Of a stretch of DNA of 64,000 nt, positions 12,181 through 23,148 are shown piece by piece. The stretch lies in NCBI GenBank assembly GCA_027021385.1, contig JALUUL010000086.1, forward strand, positions 62,001 to 126,000, written 5' to 3'. Each line of letters begins with the position of its first letter. Position 1 is the stretch's first letter. This stretch comes from Planctomycetota bacterium (GTDB lineage Bacteria; Planctomycetota; UBA1135; GCA-002748355). The notes below the pieces were generated by a model. The model searched no databases, had not been told where the DNA came from, and saw only the letters and a list, made by a program, of their open reading frames with translations. A program made the position numbers and the translations under genes.

Positions 12181-12636
12181 ATGTCGAAAACCACCCTGGC
12201 AGACCCCCGTAAGGGCTTCGATTGGCAGATCGTCGACGCCTCCGAGCATCGGCTCGGACGCCTGGCCGTCGCGATCGCCGAGACCCTGATGGGGAAGCGC
12301 AAGCCCGAGTACACCCCCCACCTCCTTTGCGGGGACGGGGTCATCGTGATCAACGCCGCGAAGGTCCAGACGACGGGCATGAAGCACGAACGCCGCAAAT
12401 ACACGTTCTACTCGGGGTATGTCGGCGGGTTGAAGGAGATCCCCCTGGGGGAGCTGCGCGACCAGAACCCCGTCAAGCTGATCACCCTCGCCGTCCGGCG
12501 CATGCTTCCCAAGAACCGCCTGGGACGCGAGATGCTGAGGCGCCTGAAAGTCTACGAGGGCCCGGAACATCCCCATCGGGCCCAGAACCCCAAGCCTCTC
12601 GTCGTCGTCCAGCCCCGCTGGCAGCCCGGGAACTGA
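12181..12636 (+). CDS. rplM: 50S ribosomal protein L13
   Basis: WQIVDASEHRLGRLAVAIAETLMGK, YTPHLLCGDGVIVINAAKV, AVRRMLPKNRLGREMLRRLKVYEG; followed by S9. Confidence 0.97.
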   Translation: MSKTTLADPRKGFDWQIVDASEHRLGRLAVAIAETLMGKRKPEYTPHLLCGDGVIVINAAKVQTTGMKHERRKYTFYSGYVGGLKEIPLGELRDQNPVKLITLAVRRMLPKNRLGREMLRRLKVYEGPEHPHRAQNPKPLVVVQPRWQPGN

Positions 12637-12653
12637 AGGGAAGAGGAACGAAC

Positions 12654-13055
12654 ATGGTATTGGAGAGCGATCCCTACGTTTGGGGCACGGGACGGCGCAA
12701 GACCGCGGTCGCGAGGGTCCGGATCAAGGCCGGCACCGGGAACATCACGATCAACAAGAGGCCCTACGAGGAGTACTTCACGACTCCCGACCATCGGTTC
12801 GCGGTCGTGGCTCCGCTCCGGGCGACCGAGACCCTCGAGCGTTACGACATCTGGGTCAACGTGAAAGGCGGGGGACCCACGGGGCAGGCGGAGGCCACGA
12901 GACTCGGCATCGCGCGGGCCCTGCTCCACGAGGATCCCTCCCTCGAGTCCGTTCTCCGGGAGAAGGGCTACCTGACCCGGGACAGCCGGATGGTCGAGCG
13001 CAAGAAACCGGGCCTGCACAAGGCGCGCAAGGCGACCCAGTATTCGAAGCGCTGA
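12654..13055 (+). CDS. rpsI: 30S ribosomal protein S9
   Basis: GTGRRKTAVARVRIKAGTGNITIN and C-terminal LTRDSRMVERKKPGLHKARKATQYSKR. Confidence 0.97.
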   Translation: MVLESDPYVWGTGRRKTAVARVRIKAGTGNITINKRPYEEYFTTPDHRFAVVAPLRATETLERYDIWVNVKGGGPTGQAEATRLGIARALLHEDPSLESVLREKGYLTRDSRMVERKKPGLHKARKATQYSKR

Positions 13056-13175
13056 TCCCAGTCGAGGGTCCCGAAGGGGCGCCCTCCCCCCGGCGCCTCG
13101 GCTCCGCTACATTGGTGCGCGGTCCCGGAGGGTCTCCGGGGCGCTTTCCGAGAGTCCAGATGCGACGGGGGCGCG

Positions 13176-13937
13176 ATGGCCGGCCATTCCCACGCTGCAA
13201 ACATCAAGTTCCGCAAGGGCCGGGTCGACGCCGCCCGCGGCAAGCTCTTCTCCAAGCTGGCCCGCGAGATCATCAGCGCGGCGAGGGAGGGGGGCGGGGA
13301 CCCCGCCGGGAACCTGCGGCTCCGCTATGCGATCGACCGCGCGAAGGCCGCGAGCATGCCCCGCGACAACATCGAGCGGGCGATCAAACGGGGAACCGGG
13401 GAACTCCAAGGGGATTCCCTCGAGGATCTGCTCTATGAAGGCTACGGGCCCGGCGGCGTCGCCTTCCTCGTCGAGGCCCTGACCGACAATCGGAATCGGA
13501 CGGCTCCCGAGGTCCGCAAGACCTTCGAGAAGCGCGGGGGGAAGATGGCGGCCACCGGAGCCGTGGCCTGGATGTTCGAGCGGAGGGCCATCTTCGTCGT
13601 CGAACGGGAGGGAGCCCCCGGCGAGGAGGACATGCTCGAGTTCGTCCTCGAGATCGGCGGGGACGATCTCCTCGTCGAGGCGGAGGCCTTCGAGATCCGC
13701 GGCGCCCCCTCGGATTTCAAGACGATCGCCGAGGGGATCGAGGGGAAGGGGCTGAAGGCCGTGGAGGCCGGGCTCGCCTGGATCCCGAAGCAGACGGTCT
13801 CCGTCGAGGACCGGGAGAAGGCCTCCCAGATCCTCAAACTGATCGAAGCCCTCGAGGATCTCGAGGATGTCCGCGCGGTCTCGGCCAACTACGACATTCC
13901 CGGCGACCTGCTCGCCGAACTCCAGGAAGGGGATTGA
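13176..13937 (+). CDS. yebC: YebC/PmpR family regulatory protein
   Basis: MAGHSHAANIKFRKGRVDAARGKLFSKLAREI and NIERAIKRGTGE match the YebC/TACO1 family. Confidence 0.93.
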   Translation: MAGHSHAANIKFRKGRVDAARGKLFSKLAREIISAAREGGGDPAGNLRLRYAIDRAKAASMPRDNIERAIKRGTGELQGDSLEDLLYEGYGPGGVAFLVEALTDNRNRTAPEVRKTFEKRGGKMAATGAVAWMFERRAIFVVEREGAPGEEDMLEFVLEIGGDDLLVEAEAFEIRGAPSDFKTIAEGIEGKGLKAVEAGLAWIPKQTVSVEDREKASQILKLIEALEDLEDVRAVSANYDIPGDLLAELQEGD

Positions 13938-14914
13938 CCTTGCAGACTACGATCTGGCTCGCCGCCGGCGCCCAGGCTTCCCTCCTCCCGGACGCCTCCT
14001 CGGTCCCGGAGGGGGTCGAGCTGCGCGAGGCCACGGCCGAGGAGTGCGGGAGGGGGCTCGAGGACGTCGCTTCCGGAGAAGGGGTCCTCCTCGGCCTCGA
14101 GGGGCTCAGCCCGAACGCCTTCGTCCTCGCCCTCGGGCTGAAGATGCGTTTCCACGGAGACATCCGGGTCGGTCTCCTCCTCCCCGGGGATGCGGATCGC
14201 GCCTGCCGCGCGTTGAGCCGCTACTGCATGGTCGACCGGCTGTTCACTCCGGCCGATCTCGAGGGGGTGCGCTGGCCCGACCTCCTGGCCCGCCTCTCCA
14301 ACGAGGATCGCCCGCGACCGAGGAAGAGCCTCGACGACATGCTGGCCGATCTCGAGGCCAAGCTGGACGAGGGAGCGGGCGCGCTGGCGGAAAGGGTCAT
14401 GAAGGGGTTGGCCACGGGGCGGGAGCAGCATTTCCTCGCCAAGGTCGTGGACCCCGAATCCGGACTCTTCGACGGGCCCTTCATGGCCTTCAAGGTCGAG
14501 GAGGAGTTCAAACGTTCGCTGCGCTTCCACGACCCCCTGACGGTGCTCCTCGTCGATCTTCCCGGGAGCGCGGGGCTCGGGGGGGAGGAGCGGGGACTCG
14601 TCCTCGGGAAGGTCGCCGGTGTCTTCCTGAACCAGTGCCGGGACATCGATCTCGTCGGGCGCTACGACGACAGCTCCTTCCTGCTGATCCTCCCCGAGAC
14701 CTCCGAAGAGGGGGCCCTGGTCCTGGCCCGGAGGATCCTCGATACGCTGGAGGCGGAGGTCGAGAGCCCGACGCCCCTCGATCCGGCGATCGCCGTAGTC
14801 TCCGTTCCGAAACCCGGAGTCGCCCACAAGGACGATCTTCTCGATCTCGCCAGGCTGACCCTGGTCCAGGCCTGGTCGGGAAAGGGGAAGGAAAGGGTCA
14901 AGGTCGCCCCCTGA
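13934..14914 (+). CDS. Degenerate GGDEF-domain protein with receiver-like N-terminus
   Basis: PLTVLLVDLPG...LVGRYDDSSFLLILPETSEEGALVLARRILDTLEAE follows the GGDEF layout with the signature degraded to YDDSSF. TTG start overlaps the yebC stop. Confidence 0.6.
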   Translation: MTLQTTIWLAAGAQASLLPDASSVPEGVELREATAEECGRGLEDVASGEGVLLGLEGLSPNAFVLALGLKMRFHGDIRVGLLLPGDADRACRALSRYCMVDRLFTPADLEGVRWPDLLARLSNEDRPRPRKSLDDMLADLEAKLDEGAGALAERVMKGLATGREQHFLAKVVDPESGLFDGPFMAFKVEEEFKRSLRFHDPLTVLLVDLPGSAGLGGEERGLVLGKVAGVFLNQCRDIDLVGRYDDSSFLLILPETSEEGALVLARRILDTLEAEVESPTPLDPAIAVVSVPKPGVAHKDDLLDLARLTLVQAWSGKGKERVKVAP

Positions 14915-15027
14915 TCCCGTCCCGGTCGGGTCCTTCGCCGGAATAATTGGCTCCTTCCGCGGAATGGGAGGTTTGCTCCTCCCCGGGATCCCGTTTTCCG
15001 GGATCATGGAGGGAACTGGCGAGGTCG

Positions 15028-17691
15028 ATGTTCCAGAGATGGATTCAGAAGATCAGGGCGGAACGGGCGCTCCGGGCGGAGCGTTTCGAGGAGGCCCTTT
15101 CGCTGCTCGACGACCCGATGTTCGGAGTGGACCGGAGGGTCCAGGATCTCCGTGGAAAGGTTTTCCTTGCCTGGAAAAACCGGGCGGAGCGGAGACTGGC
15201 GAACGGAAGACCGGAACTCGCGGTCCGGGACCTCGAGCGGCTCGCGGCCCTCGACCCGGACTCCGGGGAACTCGACGACCTCCGTCTCGCGGTCGAGGAG
15301 GCCTTGCGGGCGAAGGAAGGGTTCGAGGCCCGGAGGGCCGAGTTGCGGAGGCGCTTCGACCGGGCCCTGGACGGCGGCCGCCTGCACGAGGCGGAGGCCT
15401 GCCTGGAGGAGGGCGGCTCCCTGCTCGAGGAGGAGGAACGAAAGACCCTCGAGGCGAGGCTCGAATCCCGCCGGAGGGCGGCGAGCCGTTGTCTCGAACG
15501 GGCCCGAGAGGCGATGCGGGGAGGGTTCCGGGAGGAGGCCCGGGAGGCCCTCGAACGGGCCCACCGTCTCCGGGCGGACAGCATGGTCTTCCGGGATCGG
15601 CTCGTGAAGGCCGGGGCCCGCTGGGCCCGGAAGCGCTGGGAGGAGGTTCGGGTCGCGATGGAGGCGGGGAAGCCCCTCGAGGCGGCCTTCGCCTTCCACG
15701 ACTGGTGGGAGCGGGAACCCCGGCCCGAGGACTACGAGGAGGCCCGGGACCTCAAGGCGGCGATCGGCGGGGTACTGGGGTCGGAGGCCGACCTCCTGGC
15801 GGCGGAAGGTCGTTTCGAGGAGGCCCTGGCCTTGCTGCGGCGGGTTCCCGGACCGGTCTCCGGACTGCCGTCGTTGCGACGGCTCTCGGGAACGCTCGAA
15901 CGGCTCCTCCTCCTGGTCGCGGATCGCGGCGAGGACCCGCGGAGAGCCCTTCGCGAGCTTCGGAGGATCCAGGCCGAACGGCATTGGAAGGGACTGGAGA
16001 AAGCCCTGGAGGAGGCGGAGAAAGGGGCCTTGAAGCTCGAATCCGGGATCGAGGCTGCGAGGGCGGACCTCGCGCGGGGGGAGGTCGAGGAGGGGAGACG
16101 GCGCCTCGAGGACCTCGCGCGGGCATGGCCCGATTGCAGCGAGGTACGCCTCCTCCTGGATGGCCTCGAGCAGGACGAGGCCGAGCGGCGAGGCCGCCTG
16201 GACCGGGCCCGGGAAGCTGTCCGGGAGGGAAGGCTCTGCGAGGCCGAGGCTCTGCTCCTCTCCCTGGTCGGAGGGGGCGCGGGGGCGGAGGAGGCGCAGA
16301 ATCTCCTCCGCGACGTCGAGCGCCTCAGGACCAAGGTCCTGAAGGAGGTCGCGGCCCTCGAGGCCGCCTTCGAAGCCGGCGGGGCGGCGGAGGAGGTCCG
16401 GAAGGGCCTGGGGAGGATCGAGGCCCTGCAGAGCGATTCCCCCGAGGCGCGGGCCCTCCAGGCCCGAATCGAGGAGGCCGGGGCCCGGGAGGCCCGCCTC
16501 GCGGCCTTCTCGGAGGCCCTCGAGGCTCGGAGACCGAAGGAGGCCGTCGAGGTTCTCCGACTTTGGCTCGAGGAGGGGGGAGGATCGGGCCTGGGCCTCG
16601 AGGATCGAGAGGCTCTCGGGCGGGCCGGGGCGAAGCTCATGGAGCATCTCGAGGAAGAACTCGCCGCGGGAGCCGCGGCCTCGGCCGCGGACCTCTGCAA
16701 GGCGATCGAGGACTACGCTGCTTTCTGTGGTCTGACCCTCGAGGATCTCGCCGACCGGGCCCTCGCCCGGGTCCGGGAGGCGGAGGCGAGGGCCGAGGAG
16801 GGGCTCGCCCACCTCGAGGAGTGCAGGGTCGAGGAGGCGGAAGAGGCCCTCGAAAGGGCTAGGGCGGCGGCGCAGGACGCTCCCCAGGTCCTCCGCTTGG
16901 CCCACAAGCTCGTCCAGGTCGAGCGGGGGCGGGCCGAGATCCGGGAGATCCGGGACCTGGCCGAGAACGACCCCTTCGGCGCCCGCGACCGACTCGCCGC
17001 ATTGGGGCCGACTCCGGCTCCGCTGCGCACCCTCGTCTTCCGGGCCCGGGAGGATCTCGCCCGCAGGGGGGATCTCGAGGGCGGGTGCCGGCTCCAGGTC
17101 GAGGAGGGGGGGGAGTTTCTCGTCCTCACCGGAGACCGGCTCCGCATCGGAAATGCGACCGCTCCGGTGCGCCCCCAGATCTCCGTCCTCGCGAGAATCC
17201 GCCCGCATCATGCGACCCTCGAACGAAGACTCTCCTTCCACGGCGGGTTCAGGGATCGCATCGAGGCCTTCCAGGGCGCCCTCGTCGAGGTCGACGGTCG
17301 TCCGGTCGAGCAGTGCGACCTGGGTTCCGGGGACCGCATCCTGCTCGGGGGGATCCTTCCGATCCGCTACCTCCGCCCTCATCCGAGGTCCCTCTCCTCT
17401 CTTCTTCGACTCGAGAAGGGATTCGAATGCGAGGGGACGAGCCGGATCCTCTGGATCAAGCAAGGGGGGAGGGACGGGGCTCTCTTCTTCGGAAGGGGGC
17501 CCGACAAACACGTAAGGCTCCCCCGTCCCGAGAAGGAGGTCGCCCTCTTCGTGAAGGGACCGGGGGACTTCCGGCTCTCCTTCGCGGGGAGGGGAACGAT
17601 CGACGGGCGGCCCTTCCAGGGCGAGGTCCGGCTCCATCCCGGGGCCGAGCTGGTATGCGGGCAGGTCGCCTTCCGGATCCTTCCCCTCTGA
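15028..17691 (+). CDS. Large helical-repeat/coiled-coil protein with two C-terminal FHA-like modules
   Basis: Repeated helical hairpins (e.g. REGRLCEAEALLLSLVGGG). C-terminus: DRLRIGNATAPVRPQISVLARIRPHHATLERR...GALVEVDGRPVEQCDLGSGDRILLGG, then FFGRGPDKHVRLPRPEKEVALFVKGPG...GTIDGRPFQG...LVCGQVAFRI. Confidence 0.6.
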   Translation: MFQRWIQKIRAERALRAERFEEALSLLDDPMFGVDRRVQDLRGKVFLAWKNRAERRLANGRPELAVRDLERLAALDPDSGELDDLRLAVEEALRAKEGFEARRAELRRRFDRALDGGRLHEAEACLEEGGSLLEEEERKTLEARLESRRRAASRCLERAREAMRGGFREEAREALERAHRLRADSMVFRDRLVKAGARWARKRWEEVRVAMEAGKPLEAAFAFHDWWEREPRPEDYEEARDLKAAIGGVLGSEADLLAAEGRFEEALALLRRVPGPVSGLPSLRRLSGTLERLLLLVADRGEDPRRALRELRRIQAERHWKGLEKALEEAEKGALKLESGIEAARADLARGEVEEGRRRLEDLARAWPDCSEVRLLLDGLEQDEAERRGRLDRAREAVREGRLCEAEALLLSLVGGGAGAEEAQNLLRDVERLRTKVLKEVAALEAAFEAGGAAEEVRKGLGRIEALQSDSPEARALQARIEEAGAREARLAAFSEALEARRPKEAVEVLRLWLEEGGGSGLGLEDREALGRAGAKLMEHLEEELAAGAAASAADLCKAIEDYAAFCGLTLEDLADRALARVREAEARAEEGLAHLEECRVEEAEEALERARAAAQDAPQVLRLAHKLVQVERGRAEIREIRDLAENDPFGARDRLAALGPTPAPLRTLVFRAREDLARRGDLEGGCRLQVEEGGEFLVLTGDRLRIGNATAPVRPQISVLARIRPHHATLERRLSFHGGFRDRIEAFQGALVEVDGRPVEQCDLGSGDRILLGGILPIRYLRPHPRSLSSLLRLEKGFECEGTSRILWIKQGGRDGALFFGRGPDKHVRLPRPEKEVALFVKGPGDFRLSFAGRGTIDGRPFQGEVRLHPGAELVCGQVAFRILPL

Positions 17692-17730
17692 AGGTCCGAA
17701 TAATGCCCTCCTTCCTCCGTAGGGGGCCCC

Positions 17731-18288
17731 ATGTTTTCCTGGGTCGCGATGCTCGCCGTTCTCCTCCTTCCGGCGCAGGAAGCGGGGGGGGCCGCAGGCC
17801 CGTGGATCGAGGGACCGATCGAACTCGACCGGGTCGCCGCGATCTCCGGGGCGAAAACCCTCGCCGTCCGGGTTCTCGAGGAACGATACCTGCCTCTCTG
17901 GGAACGGGAGGCCGGTCCCTTCCTGCCCTCCCCGAGACTCCGGGCCCACATGGAGCGCTGGCTCGCTCTTCACGGACTTCGCAAGATCACCGAACCCCTC
18001 CCTCTCGAGGTCTTCGAGACCTCGGTCGGCCGCGCCTTTCGGAGGATCTATCGCCTGCGCGTGGAGGGGCGGGAGGAGCGGTCTTTCCTGTTCGATTCGT
18101 TCGGGGAGATCCGGAGACTCCGGGGGAGATACGAGAACCGCTGGATCGGATTCTCGGTCTTTCTCGGCGTCGTGCTCCTCCTCGGGATCTGGCTCGACCG
18201 CTCGACGCGGGGCTTCCTGACGGGGAAGATCCTCCTCGGGGGCTTCCTTCTTTCGGGCGCGGGACTCTGGCTCCTGATGTCCTCCTGA
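17731..18288 (+). CDS. Small membrane protein (signal peptide plus two C-terminal TM segments)
   Basis: MFSWVAMLAVLLLPAQEAGG; WIGFSVFLGVVLLLGIWLD; KILLGGFLLSGAGLWLLMSS. Lies 9 nt before the first kinase ORF. Confidence 0.65.
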   Translation: MFSWVAMLAVLLLPAQEAGGAAGPWIEGPIELDRVAAISGAKTLAVRVLEERYLPLWEREAGPFLPSPRLRAHMERWLALHGLRKITEPLPLEVFETSVGRAFRRIYRLRVEGREERSFLFDSFGEIRRLRGRYENRWIGFSVFLGVVLLLGIWLDRSTRGFLTGKILLGGFLLSGAGLWLLMSS

Positions 18289-18297
18289 AGGGGTAGG

Positions 18298-19722
18298 ATG
18301 GGTCCCTTGCTGGAACGGAGAGAACAGGGCTCATCCGAACGAGGCGTCTTCGACGGGAGTTCGAAGTCGTCGCCGGATTGGGAGCGTTTCTTTTCCGAGT
18401 TCCGCAAACCCGGATACATCGAGGGCTATTCGATCCTCCAGAAGCTCGGGGGCGGGGTCTTCGGCATCGTCTACAAGGCGAAGAAGGAATCGATCGCCAA
18501 GACCTACGCGATCAAGTTCCTCAAGGTGGACGACCCCGCGGTCCACGACAGGGTCCTCCGGGAACTGGCGCAGGTCGGGATCTTCGCGCAGGTCGATCAC
18601 CCGAACCTCGTCAGTATCGAGGATCGGGGCGTCGTCGACGGCATTCCCTACATCGTCATGGGATACGCCGGCGACGAGACCCTCGAGGGCCGTCTGTCCG
18701 AGGGTCCCCTGTCCGAGGAGGAGACCCTGTCGATCGTATCCCAGGTCTGCCGGGGCGTGCGGGCCCTGCACGACCGGGGGCTTGCCCATTTCGACCTGAA
18801 ACCGGCGAACATCTTCCTGAAGGGTTCCGTCGCTCGGGTCGGGGACTACGGGCTCTCGAAGCTCGTCCGGGATTCCTGTCAGAGCCTCTCCTGCGGGCGG
18901 GGCACCCCCTACTACATGGCTCCGGAGATGTTACGGCGGAAAGCCGACCATCGCGCGGACATCTACAGTCTCGGCGTGATCTTCTACGAGTGTCTCGAGG
19001 GGCGGCCCCCCTTCGGGGGGGAGAACGAGTGGGAGGTCCTGAAGGCCCACGAGGAGGCCGAGGTCGTCTTCGGCGGACGGATCCCCGGCTCCCTCCGGCC
19101 GATCCTGCGTAGGATGCTGGCGAAGGATCCCAAGGACCGGTATCCGGATCTAGGCAAGGTTCTCTCGGATCTGAGATCCGTCCTTCCCGAGGCTCGCGCG
19201 ATCCTCCTCGTCGAATCGGCGGCGGCCCGGGGCGGGGAAGAGGAGGTCGGGGAACCCGAACTTCCGCATCCCTCCCCGGATCGGGCCCGGAAACCGGCGA
19301 AAGCTCCGCCCAGGAGGTCGTCCTCCTTCTTCATGGGATTCCTCGCCTCCGTCCTGCTCGTGGTCCTCCTGGTTCCGGGGTTCCGCTACGGACCGATGAA
19401 ACTCACGGCCCTCCTCCTCTTCTTCCTCTTCGTCTTCCTGGTCTACCGGGCCCTGGCGCCCGCCCCCTCGAAGAGTGGAGGATCGGTCCTGTGGAGGCGT
19501 TTCGCCGGAATTCTGGTTCTCCTCCTTTTCGCCGGCACGGTCCTCCTTTTTTCCGTCCTCTCCACCCCTTCCTCCTCGATCCGATCGGAGTCGGGGAAAC
19601 CTTCTCCTCTCGAGGCGGGGGATGCGGGAACGAAGGGGAGGAGGGGAAAGCTCTCGAGACCTCTCCTCGAGAAGAGGATCATACCCGTCCCCCCGGCGGA
19701 GGGGGAGGAGGGTAAACGATGA
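18298..19722 (+). CDS. Hanks-type Ser/Thr protein kinase with C-terminal TM region
   Basis: LGGGVFGIVYKA, YAIKFLKV, AHFDLKPANIFLKG, VGDYGLSKL, GTPYYMAPEM, DIYSLGVIFYECLEGRPPF; C-terminal TM segments. Confidence 0.93.
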   Translation: MGPLLERREQGSSERGVFDGSSKSSPDWERFFSEFRKPGYIEGYSILQKLGGGVFGIVYKAKKESIAKTYAIKFLKVDDPAVHDRVLRELAQVGIFAQVDHPNLVSIEDRGVVDGIPYIVMGYAGDETLEGRLSEGPLSEEETLSIVSQVCRGVRALHDRGLAHFDLKPANIFLKGSVARVGDYGLSKLVRDSCQSLSCGRGTPYYMAPEMLRRKADHRADIYSLGVIFYECLEGRPPFGGENEWEVLKAHEEAEVVFGGRIPGSLRPILRRMLAKDPKDRYPDLGKVLSDLRSVLPEARAILLVESAAARGGEEEVGEPELPHPSPDRARKPAKAPPRRSSSFFMGFLASVLLVVLLVPGFRYGPMKLTALLLFFLFVFLVYRALAPAPSKSGGSVLWRRFAGILVLLLFAGTVLLFSVLSTPSSSIRSESGKPSPLEAGDAGTKGRRGKLSRPLLEKRIIPVPPAEGEEGKR

Positions 19723-21050
19723 TGGCGGCCGAGGCCCTGGGCCGCGGGGCCTTCGATCCTCCCGGGAAGGGGGCGGATTGGGAGGGCTTCTATCGGGATT
19801 TCCGCAAACCGGGGTTCATCCGGGGTTACGAGATCCTGCACAAGCTCGGAGGCGGCGTCTTTGGCATCGTCTTCAAGGCGCGGAAGGAGAGCATCGGAAA
19901 GAACTACGCGATCAAGTTCCTGAAGGTCGACGACCCCTCGGTCAAGGAGCAGATCTTCCGGGAACTCGAATCCGTCGAACTCTTCGCCCAGGTCGACCAT
20001 CCGAACCTCGTCAGCATCGAGGACCGAGGCGTCGTCCTGGGCATCCCCTACATCATCATGGGCTACGCCGGCGAGGAGACCTTGAAGACGAGGCTCGAGG
20101 AAGGCCCGCTGGAGGAACCGGAGGCGCTCGGCGTCTTCGTCCAGGTTCTACGAGGGGTGCAGGCCCTTCACGAGCATTCGCTCGTCCACTTCGACCTGAA
20201 GCCCGCGAACATCTTCTTGAAAGGCGATGTCGCGAGGGTCGGGGACTACGGTCTCTCCAAGCTGGTCAGCGAATCCCGCATGTCCCTGTCCTTCGGGCGG
20301 GGAACCCCCTACTACATGGCCCCGGAGATGCTCAAGCGGAAGGGGGATCACCGTTCCGACATCTACAGCCTCGGGGTGATCTTCTTCGAATGCCTGACCG
20401 GTGAAGTCCCCTTCACCGGGGAGAACGAGTGGGAGGTCTTGAAGGCGCATGAGGAACAGGAACCCAGGATGCCGGCCGGTCTCGCTCCCCGGTTCCGGAA
20501 GATCCTGAACCGCATGCTGGCGAAGGATCCCGCCCGGAGATACCAGGACCTCCGGGAGGTGCTCCGGAATCTGGGGGCTTCCGAGCGAGCCGGAGAGTCC
20601 CTCCTGTGGTCGGAGGCGGACGGCCCCCCGTCCGGGAAGGGGGGAGAGCGCGGAATCCACCCCCCTCCGCTCCCCTCGAGCGGGAGGATCCCTCCTTCAC
20701 GGTCCTCTTTCCGAACGAAGGGACCGGAGAGCGGGGAGGGGGGGAGGCTTCCACCGCCCCCCGCGGCCCGGTCGCGGCCGGGACGGGGCGTTCCGACCCT
20801 GAGGGGATTGGCCGGGGGAATCCTCCAGGCCCTGCTCATCGCCGTACTCCTCCCCGCCCGACTGTTCGGGGTCCTCCTCGGCCAGGTCCTGGGCCTCGTG
20901 ATCGCAATTCCGCTGGCCCTGCTCCGGCTTGCGGGGAAACTCGTCTTCTTCTTCTTGATCCTCGTCGTCCTCTTCATGATCTACATGTTCCTGTCGATGG
21001 GGGTGTCCGCCCTCGCCGTGATCGGTATCGGCATCCCGTTGCTTCCTTAG
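19719..21050 (+). CDS. Hanks-type Ser/Thr protein kinase with C-terminal TM region (paralog of the upstream gene)
   Basis: Overlaps the previous gene. LGGGVFGIVFKA, YAIKFLKVDD, VHFDLKPANIFLKG, VGDYGLSKL, GTPYYMAPEM; multi-TM C-terminus. Confidence 0.93.
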   Translation: MMAAEALGRGAFDPPGKGADWEGFYRDFRKPGFIRGYEILHKLGGGVFGIVFKARKESIGKNYAIKFLKVDDPSVKEQIFRELESVELFAQVDHPNLVSIEDRGVVLGIPYIIMGYAGEETLKTRLEEGPLEEPEALGVFVQVLRGVQALHEHSLVHFDLKPANIFLKGDVARVGDYGLSKLVSESRMSLSFGRGTPYYMAPEMLKRKGDHRSDIYSLGVIFFECLTGEVPFTGENEWEVLKAHEEQEPRMPAGLAPRFRKILNRMLAKDPARRYQDLREVLRNLGASERAGESLLWSEADGPPSGKGGERGIHPPPLPSSGRIPPSRSSFRTKGPESGEGGRLPPPPAARSRPGRGVPTLRGLAGGILQALLIAVLLPARLFGVLLGQVLGLVIAIPLALLRLAGKLVFFFLILVVLFMIYMFLSMGVSALAVIGIGIPLLP

Positions 21051-21067
21051 ATTTCCGAGGGGCCCCG

Positions 21068-21712
21068 ATGAGTTCGTTTTCGATCCGTAAACTCCAGGAG
21101 CTGGACGAAGGCGAATGGACGAGGCTCCAGGAGGAATACGGACCGCGCATCTACTTCTACATCAAGAAACAGGTGACCGATCACCAGACGGCCGAGGACC
21201 TGACGCAGGAGACCTTCCTGGGCGCGATCCGGGGGATCGGGAACTTCGATCCCCGATACGAACTCGAGCAGTTCCTGTTCGGAATCGCCCGGAACAGGGT
21301 CGTCGACCATTTCCGGAAGAAGAGACCGATCCCGATGTCCTCGAAGGGGGATGACGGCAAGGAACGGAGCTACCTGGGGCTCGAGTTCATGGCCTCCGAC
21401 CGGAGGTCCCCCGAGGAGAGCGCGGTCCACTTCGAACAAGTCCAGGCCCGCCGGGAGGCCCTGGCGGAAATTCTGAAGGCCCTCGTCGCCGAACTCTGGG
21501 AGGAGGGGGAGTTCGAGAAACTCAAGATCCTCGAGTTCCTGATCGCGCTCGGAGGGCGGAACAAGGAGGCGGCCGAGAAGTTCGACGTCAAGGACGAGAA
21601 GGCCGTCGCGGGGATCAAGTTCCGGGCGATCGAGAAGATGCGGGCGATGGCCCGGAGGATGGACCCGAAGCACGATCTTTTCGAGGGTCTCTGGCTGCCG
21701 GGAGCGAGGTGA
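21068..21712 (+). CDS. ECF-type RNA polymerase sigma factor
   Basis: Region 2: HQTAEDLTQETFLGAIRGIGNFDPRYELEQFLFGIARNRVVDHFRKKRP. Region 4-like HTH: NKEAAEKFDVKDEKAVAGIKFRAIEKMR. Confidence 0.85.
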   Translation: MSSFSIRKLQELDEGEWTRLQEEYGPRIYFYIKKQVTDHQTAEDLTQETFLGAIRGIGNFDPRYELEQFLFGIARNRVVDHFRKKRPIPMSSKGDDGKERSYLGLEFMASDRRSPEESAVHFEQVQARREALAEILKALVAELWEEGEFEKLKILEFLIALGGRNKEAAEKFDVKDEKAVAGIKFRAIEKMRAMARRMDPKHDLFEGLWLPGAR

Positions 21713-22032
21713 TGGAGCGGAACGAGGAAGCCGGGGTTCCGGAGAGGACGGAGCGTTTGATGCTGACCGCGGGCGAGGTCTGGCGGGAGGCGGGGGTCAG
21801 TTGTCCGCATCCCGACATCCTTCTCGCCTGGAAGGAAGGAGCGCTCGCGGAAGGGCCCTCCGGATATCTCCGATTCCACGTAGAAGAAGCCGGGTGCCCG
21901 AGGTGCCAGGCCGTGGTCGAGGACCTGACCCGGAAGGCCCGGGCGGATTCTGGCCGGGAGGAGGAACTCGGCTCCCTGAAGGCCAAACTCCTTTCCTCGA
22001 CGATGACCTTCCTCCGCAAGAGGAAGGGCTGA
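21712..22032 (+). CDS. Small soluble zinc-finger (zf-HC2-like) protein, possible anti-sigma partner
   Basis: CPHPDILLAWKEGALAEGPSGYLRFHVEEAGCPRCQAVVEDL resembles zf-HC2/ZAS fingers. Overlaps the sigma gene stop; no TM segment. Alternative ATG at 21709 is out by one codon. Confidence 0.6.
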   Translation: MERNEEAGVPERTERLMLTAGEVWREAGVSCPHPDILLAWKEGALAEGPSGYLRFHVEEAGCPRCQAVVEDLTRKARADSGREEELGSLKAKLLSSTMTFLRKRKG

Positions 22033-22284
22033 ACTCCGCGGTTTTTTCCAAGCCACCCATTCGGGGGTCCGCGGACGGATCACCGGGCCGCGGGTCGAGC
22101 GGCCGGCCTGTCTTTCCCTTCGCGGGAACCATGGTTCTCCCCCCGATCCGACGGAGTTCCGCCGGCCGGGAGGCCTAGCCGGAAGGAAATATCGGAAGCT
22201 CGAAACCGCATGGAGGGGATACGCCCCGGAAGAGGCGGCCGTTCGCCCTTTCGGAGCCCTCGATCCAAGCAGGAGAACCGAACG

Positions 22285-23148
22285 ATGCGTAAAATGCTCA
22301 AGATGACCTTTTTCTCCATGCTGGTCCTCGCGGGGGCGGGATTCCTCCTGTTCGGGACCAGCCTGGGAAGCTACGCGAAGACGGCCTTCCAGGACGTCCG
22401 CCAGAAGATCAAGTCGAGCGTCCCGATCGATTTCGAACTCCGGAGGGCCCGGCGCCTGATCCGCCGGATCGATCCGGAGATCCTCGATGCGCGGAAGGAC
22501 GTGGCCCGCGCCGAAGTCGCCCTCGAGACTCTTCAGACCGACATCGCCGCCTTGGAGAAAGCGATCACCAAGGGAGAGAGCCGGGTCCGCCGGACCGCCG
22601 GCATGTTGCAGCGCGAAGGGGCTTTCCGGTTGACGGTCTACGGGAGGCGATGGTCCCGCGCGCAGGTCGAGCGGGAACTCGCCCGGAGTTTCGACATGGT
22701 CCGGAACCAGACCGAACTCCTGAAGAGCAAGAAGGCCCTCGTCGAGCGCCAGAGCAAGATCCTGGACGCGGCCCGCCGGAAGCTGGCCGCCGTCCGGCAG
22801 GAGAAGGCCAGGCTTGAGGACCTCGTCGAGGCTCTCGAGGCGAAGAAGCGGCAGCTCGACGCCCTTGCGGCCTCCGCGCACCGCTTCGATCTCGACACCT
22901 CGAGTCTCGGAGAGGCCCGCAAGGTACTCGAGGAGGTGCGGCGCAGGCTCGATGTCACCCAGAAGCTGATCCAGGAAGAGCTGTTCTTCACGGTCGGCGC
23001 CGAGGAGGACGAGGGCGAGGTCCGGGACATCCTTGCCGAGATCGGGCGTTACTTCGGGAGGAAAGCGGGGGGGGCGGAAGGTTCGGAGGGAGCCGTTCCG
23101 GTGGATTCCGCGAAGGGGGAACTCCTCGGGGGACCCCCGAACCGCTGA
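22285..23148 (+). CDS. Membrane-anchored coiled-coil protein, PspA-like
   Basis: N-terminal TM (MTFFSMLVLAGAGFLLFGTSLGSYAKTA), then RQKIKSSVPIDFELRRARRLIRRIDPEI and long coiled coils, recalling PspA-like planctomycetal membrane proteins. Confidence 0.6.
   Translation: MRKMLKMTFFSMLVLAGAGFLLFGTSLGSYAKTAFQDVRQKIKSSVPIDFELRRARRLIRRIDPEILDARKDVARAEVALETLQTDIAALEKAITKGESRVRRTAGMLQREGAFRLTVYGRRWSRAQVERELARSFDMVRNQTELLKSKKALVERQSKILDAARRKLAAVRQEKARLEDLVEALEAKKRQLDALAASAHRFDLDTSSLGEARKVLEEVRRRLDVTQKLIQEELFFTVGAEEDEGEVRDILAEIGRYFGRKAGGAEGSEGAVPVDSAKGELLGGPPNR

Follow-up and report, generated by a model that had tools for sequence, protein, structure and literature searches.

A conserved planctomycete gene block and candidate signalling module with a membrane Ser/Thr kinase, an FHA-fold protein, a degenerate GGDEF protein, an ECF sigma factor and a ZAS-like zinc protein

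A candidate transmembrane signalling and sigma-switch module

Eight open reading frames at positions 13934-23148 of a 64 kb stretch of planctomycete DNA (contig C86 of the 3.69 Mb draft genome G000, which its nearest relatives place among the planctomycetes; the whole stretch is referred to as the window) encode, all on the forward strand and in this order, a degenerate GGDEF protein, a TPR/FHA protein, a small membrane protein, two Ser/Thr kinases, an extracytoplasmic function (ECF) sigma factor, a zinc-binding protein and a coiled-coil protein. The block holds up as real, with a gene order that is found again well beyond close relatives. We consider it moderately probable that it represents an ancient planctomycete module for transmembrane signalling and sigma switching, in which a kinase/FHA branch and cyclic di-GMP (c-di-GMP) serve as inputs on a pair of ECF sigma factor and anti-sigma factor.

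The initial annotation of this region had listed eight consecutive genes on one strand with a kinase/kinase and a sigma/zinc-finger overlap, and all reading frames and both overlaps (19719-19722 and 21709-21712) do exist; in addition, the GGDEF start and the yebC stop have 4 nt in common (13934-13937). The FHA gene most likely begins at ATG 15028, and the ECF gene begins at ATG 21068. A larger intergenic region in front of the last gene, also annotated, is present, but the start of this gene had to be moved: the coiled-coil gene most likely begins at ATG 22285 and not at ATG 22210, because its homologues start at the same MRK and because the first base of ATG 22210 is also the final one of a promoter-like element (22187-22210). 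The last intergenic gap therefore measures 252 nt. The features of the block, all on the forward strand (+), are the following:

13934-14914 (+): degenerate REC-like/GGDEF protein P0001, probable c-di-GMP receptor (Pfam GGDEF, 1.1e-6; motif comparison)
14639-14650 (+): RxxD inhibitory-site motif, R236-D-I-D239; R and D, unchanged in all 82 distinct orthologs, align with PleD R359/D362
14666-14680 (+): degenerate active-site motif DDSSF replacing GG(D/E)EF, of which the F alone is kept
15028-17691 (+): TPR-like helical protein P0002 with two C-terminal FHA-fold domains (TPR_2, 1.1e-4; AlphaFold2 model; Foldseek)
17083-17376 (+), approximate limits: FHA domain 1, SFHGG motif conserved, canonical phosphothreonine residues mostly missing (AlphaFold2, Foldseek)
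17398-17685 (+), approximate limits: FHA-like domain 2, second all-beta unit in the AlphaFold2 model, canonical phosphothreonine residues mostly missing
17698-17721 (+): promoter-like element GAATAATGCCCTCCTTCCTCCGTA 5' of the membrane-protein gene, one of two matches in the window, position conserved in relatives
17731-18288 (+): small membrane protein P0003, with two C-terminal hydrophobic segments separated by a TRGY-like loop
18298-19722 (+): membrane Ser/Thr kinase 1, P0004 (Pkinase, 1.2e-45), catalytic residues intact
19719-21050 (+): membrane Ser/Thr kinase 2, P0005, non-RD type (HFD; Pkinase, 2e-46)
21068-21712 (+): ECF sigma factor P0006 (Sigma70_r2, 1e-16; sigma70-ECF, 1.2e-16)
21709-22032 (+): ZAS-like zinc-binding putative anti-sigma factor P0007 (invariant ligands; hhalign to ZAS; natural ECF fusions)
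22187-22210 (+): promoter-like element AAATATCGGAAGCTCGAAACCGCA 5' of the coiled-coil gene (k-mer search, pattern scan)
22285-23148 (+): membrane-anchored coiled-coil protein P0008, start corrected, candidate sigma target (transmembrane segment, conserved GSY motif, element upstream)

Conservation across the class and the phylum

Related loci, retrieved with the kinase and the ECF sigma factor, and stretches of up to 17 kb were searched by tblastn and hidden Markov models; counts for the class refer to 76 non-redundant loci, each with at least 6.5 kb of upstream sequence. The zinc protein adjoins the ECF sigma factor or is fused to it at all 76 loci, and the degenerate GGDEF protein (70/76), a kinase (69/76) and the FHA protein (63/76) are found at most of them. 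A match to the ECF profile (E <= 1e-20) occurs in 105 of the 154 class genomes and is almost always single. Beyond the class, other planctomycete classes have a core lacking the GGDEF gene, with FHA protein, kinase, ECF sigma factor, zinc protein and coiled coil at one locus, and in more distant classes the order is changed to coiled coil, FHA, kinase, membrane protein, ECF and zinc protein. A chance neighbourhood is ruled out by an order conserved so far outside the window's family. What had been proposed from this one locus, namely that kinase, FHA protein, ECF sigma factor and zinc protein belong together, is borne out as one conserved unit by the gene order in relatives, the FHA fold and the kinase-linked domains.

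The kinase gene is absent at 7 of the 76 loci, and the genes for the GGDEF protein and the ECF sigma factor with its zinc domain are still neighbours there. At the smallest loci the GGDEF gene stands beside an ECF-zinc protein fusion, with both kinase and FHA genes missing at the locus (L170, L175, L186, L187, L190, L191, L193, L201 and L202), while L158 has the same pair without a kinase and retains the FHA gene. These kinase-less loci suggest a direct link between the GGDEF protein and the sigma factor.

The genes 5' of the block, recognised by their sequence, are rplM, rpsI and yebC. rpsI and yebC (12181-13937 in the window) precede the module at most class loci, yebC being close to it at 62 of 76. 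Two members of the window's family carry the FHA gene in the opposite orientation to the other module genes (L038, 4082-7189; L062, 3805-6840). One complete relative is the chromosome of strain Poly30 (L097), which we take to be Saltatorellus ferox, in the sister family f8. At f8 loci (e.g. L097, 11562-12617) a conserved protein of 351 residues with an N-terminal hydrophobic segment, of a family different from the coiled coil, takes the place of the latter 3' of the fused ECF gene.

The degenerate GGDEF protein

None of the 82 distinct orthologs of P0001 carries GG(D/E)EF, the motif that an active cyclase combines with a GTP/metal site, which rules out an active diguanylate cyclase. The corresponding residues drift from DDSSF in the window to DESSF, DENSF or APTVF in orthologs, and the GTP-binding loop FKxxNDxxGH has become shorter or can no longer be recognised. 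The flanking RxxD motif, on the other hand, is unchanged in all 82 orthologs. The c-di-GMP inhibitory site of PleD comprises the residues R313, R359, D362 and R390 (PMC7288161), and in our alignment they correspond to R194, R236, D239 and R267 of P0001, four columns that are invariant in 82/82 sequences. Because the inhibitory site was retained after the active site had been lost, P0001 is likely a c-di-GMP receptor. The earlier description of a broken GGDEF/REC protein holds for the GGDEF domain, with the amendment that this domain keeps a complete inhibitory site, but the REC part is weak: Response_reg is matched by 3 of 16 members of the family, with an E value of 0.003 at best, and a profile comparison covered nearly the whole length of the response-regulator cyclase 3bre. 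Other, intact GGDEF proteins are encoded in G000; no EAL-domain protein was detected in this genome, in which c-di-GMP may be broken down by another enzyme type.

Alternatively, the domain might not bind c-di-GMP at all and act as a structural scaffold in dimerisation, localisation or GTP sensing. Degenerate GGDEF domains can indeed take other roles such as GTP sensing (PMC7288161), and RxxD is common by descent. Against a scaffold stands that four inhibitory-site positions, including the inter-subunit arginine, are kept in 82/82 orthologs while the GTP-site motifs were lost. We regard a scaffold as unlikely, but among the alternatives it is the one to be taken most seriously.

ECF sigma factor and zinc protein

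P0006 consists of sigma2 and sigma4 only, the architecture of an ECF sigma factor, and the group to which it belongs may already be catalogued. Its partner has four zinc ligands, C32, H57, C63 and C66, none of which varies among 51 homologues. In hhalign comparisons the zinc protein matched a ZAS profile gathered from the same genome set with E=1e-5 and a probability of 82%, all four ligands being aligned, compared to E values of 0.034-0.76 for three control profiles. We counted it with the ZAS domains, which show C-x~25-H-x(3)-C-x2-C in a helical domain adjacent to a cognate ECF sigma factor, although its own spacing is H-x5-C-x2-C; a profile search of the PDB with the zinc finger gave no useful match.

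The two proteins are also physically joined in nature. Family f8 and some other lineages encode a single protein in which sigma4 is followed by the zinc domain, and on a tree of 124 ECF sigma factors four changes between the fused and the split state are needed; as one of these (L095) reflects an incomplete contig, at least three fusion or fission events remain. An AlphaFold model of the Poly30 fusion shows a helical zinc domain, with most residues confident (predicted template modelling score, pTM, 0.60). The zinc protein is therefore best read, from profile, ligands and fusions, as a ZAS-like, putative anti-sigma domain, which makes its annotation as a possible sigma regulator more precise.

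Two other functions can be conceived for this pair. The kinase might phosphorylate the ECF sigma factor and thereby allow binding to RNA polymerase, as in the EcfP/EcfK (ECF43) type, with the zinc protein as an accessory. A kinase gene does stand 5' of the ECF gene at 69 of 76 class loci, ECF groups linked to Ser/Thr kinases are known, and those outside ECF43 keep the acidic motif. According to the published description, however, ECF43 members have a sigma2.2 DAED motif without negative charge and a phosphorylatable Thr instead, and the module's orthologs displayed retain acidic residues in sigma2.2 (TAED, AAED, RED and similar), on the strength of which we reject a phospho-switch of the ECF43 type. 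Moreover, it is the zinc partner that is present at 76/76 loci and the kinase that is missing at some, and we consider the EcfP/EcfK alternative improbable. We give the same low standing to the idea that the zinc protein is a CorE-like activator domain sensing metal or redox state, with a module responding to metal or thiol stress. The C-terminal fusions resemble CorE-type extensions and there are four invariant zinc ligands, but profile similarity and ligand pattern fit ZAS rather than a CorE-like domain, the zinc protein is separate in the window's family, and the kinase, FHA and GGDEF genes would be left unexplained.

FHA protein and kinases

Pfam detected no FHA domain in P0002. The C-terminal 220 residues were nevertheless modelled by AlphaFold2 from 42 input sequences with a pLDDT (predicted local distance difference test) of 93, and the leading Foldseek matches in the PDB are FHA domains (KIF1A, Slr1951, GarA, EssC; probability about 1.0). 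According to this model the fold is an FHA beta-sandwich, as the label FHA-like had anticipated. The role of phospho-reader attached to that label finds no support in the sequence: SFHGG is conserved in the first domain, but among the residues of this domain that would contact phosphothreonine the Arg position holds N, H or S in 42/42 sequences, Ser is found in 7/42 and Asn in 10/42. We reject a canonical phosphothreonine-reading FHA domain on account of these mostly missing contacts.

The 106 module kinases all have the invariant K, D, N, D(Y/F)G and APE residues of active Hanks-type kinases, with DYG in 102 and DFG in 4. HFD in place of HRD in 106/106 suggests a non-RD type, and hydrophobic segments near the C-terminus suggest that the kinases are anchored in the membrane. 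Two membrane kinases, as initially described, are encoded in the window, but the second is a duplication confined to the window's family, and most relatives have a single one. Close paralogues of the module kinases (55-63% identity; L074, L076-L079, L081, L082, L090 and L101) have longer reading frames and no ECF gene nearby, and constitute a second branch of the kinase family.

The remaining two proteins are membrane proteins. The family of the small membrane protein, for which no Pfam family was found, is present at 26 of 31 unfused class loci and has a counterpart 5' of the ECF gene in other classes. The coiled-coil protein, with its transmembrane segment and GSY motif, has homologues in other classes; a profile search of the PDB gave no useful match.

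A promoter-like element associated with the module

A k-mer search 5' of the coiled-coil gene recovered CGAATAGTC, with the core GAATA-N14/15-CGYA, and k-mer counts 5' of the yebC, GGDEF, ECF, kinase and FHA genes showed no clear promoter. At spacings of 14-15 the module loci contain 46 sense matches, all 5' of FHA, membrane-protein or coiled-coil genes, against 2 antisense matches; at spacings of 13, 16 and 17 there are 2, 0 and 1 sense matches, respectively. In its (G/A)AATA form the element has exactly two matches in the 64 kb window, at 17698 and 22187, each 5' of a module gene. A sigma-70 promoter scan returned 0 sites.

The same picture emerges on a genomic scale. In 25 genomes, comprising 24 ECF-bearing members of family f6 and G000 (which contributes no match), the pattern GAATAGTC-N11/12-CGYA has 34 matches compared to 1 match of the reversed pattern, whereas the 25 class genomes in which no ECF sigma factor was detected show 11 matches and 12 reversed ones. 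The element is above background only where the ECF sigma factor is present. It is most simply explained as the sigma factor's own promoter, with autoregulation, an assignment suggested by this co-occurrence. Perfect elements also lie 5' of orthologs of exported-protein genes in G001 (window's family), G026 and G144 (Poly30). Candidate targets outside the module comprise a gene whose TPR product has a hydrophobic segment at the N-terminus (L335, 1096-1956) and one for a carboxypeptidase-regulatory-like protein of 982 residues (L343, 3-2948, minus strand), each kind being found in two genomes independently; members of several genera have the element 5' of these genes.

Because the element is shared by two internal genes of the window, the block is not necessarily a single transcript. 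A mere neighbourhood of separate pathways riding on the rpsI-yebC region, suggested by the proximity of yebC at the class loci, is very improbable, since the families cluster without yebC or GGDEF genes, reordered and in other classes, the ECF and zinc domains occur fused, and one promoter-like element stands 5' of three module genes.

Proposed mechanism

In the mechanism we favour, the ZAS-like zinc protein would keep the ECF sigma factor inactive. One input would come from the membrane Ser/Thr kinase together with the TPR/FHA scaffold, whose FHA domains would act mainly as a protein-binding platform, and a second, restricted to this class, from the dead GGDEF protein, which would bind c-di-GMP via its intact inhibitory site. 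Kinase activity, the c-di-GMP level or both would free the sigma factor, which would then read GAATA-N14/15-CGYA 5' of the module's FHA, membrane-protein and coiled-coil genes and of some genes whose exported products are TPR or carboxypeptidase-regulatory-like proteins. As a result, the module would be under positive feedback and the cell envelope would change; we infer this envelope role, and the direction of the individual steps, from sequence. Kinase-driven release of a zinc anti-sigma factor has a precedent (PMC8999054), and so has a c-di-GMP-dependent sigma switch, in RsiG-WhiG (PMC8325347).

Several observations weigh against this mechanism. RxxD is present in most intact GGDEF domains sampled from relatives, and inheritance therefore explains part of its retention in the degenerate protein. 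Canonical phosphothreonine contacts are mostly missing from the FHA domains. For the zinc protein, only 2 of 51 members match Pfam zf-HC2, not significantly (best E 0.089), and the pTM of the fusion model leaves the docking of the zinc domain on the sigma factor unfixed. Finally, the element is imperfect or absent 5' of many target orthologs, was not found in Poly30's own module, and has no perfect copy 5' of the window's own FHA gene.

Comparison with known systems

Planctomycetes have many ECF sigma factors and many kinases, and few of their signalling pathways have, to our knowledge, been worked out. Within its class the module described here usually occurs in one copy, it is found again in other classes, and a candidate promoter with a few candidate targets makes it directly testable.

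Each part of it has known counterparts. With ECF43 systems (EcfP/PknT, EcfK/PknS) the module shares a membrane Ser/Thr kinase gene beside the ECF gene, and it differs by the kept sigma2.2 charges, the constant zinc anti-sigma-like partner and the added FHA and GGDEF genes. CorE-like ECF sigma factors resemble the f8 fusions in having a metal-binding domain behind sigma4, but in the window's family the zinc protein is separate and its sequence fits ZAS. RshA, RsrA and ChrR are examples of ZAS-type anti-sigma factors. Pairs of this kind likewise have a four-ligand zinc domain beside the ECF sigma factor, and a kinase can phosphorylate the anti-sigma factor and so release sigma (PMC8999054). The module's zinc protein departs from them in its H-x5-C-x2-C instead of H-x3-C-x2-C spacing, in its repeated fusion or splitting and in the remoteness of the similarity. 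Degenerate GGDEF receptors of c-di-GMP, such as PopA and SgmT, also combine a dead active site with an intact RxxD motif; here the difference is the link to an ECF sigma factor. RsiG-WhiG, in turn, shares the control of a sigma/anti-sigma pair by c-di-GMP (PMC8325347), but involves a different sigma family, and the proposed receptor of the module would be the inhibitory site of a degenerate GGDEF protein and not the anti-sigma factor itself.

The kinds of components are known, and it is their combination, their depth in the phylum and the promoter that make the module a new variant. More tentatively, and with somewhat less than even confidence, we propose as its distinguishing feature a dead GGDEF protein that serves as c-di-GMP receptor wired directly to an ECF/anti-sigma pair, with a parallel kinase/FHA branch and a defined promoter, throughout the class. 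If the c-di-GMP step holds true, the module would couple a global second messenger with an ECF sigma factor by means of a receptor unlike that of RsiG-WhiG.

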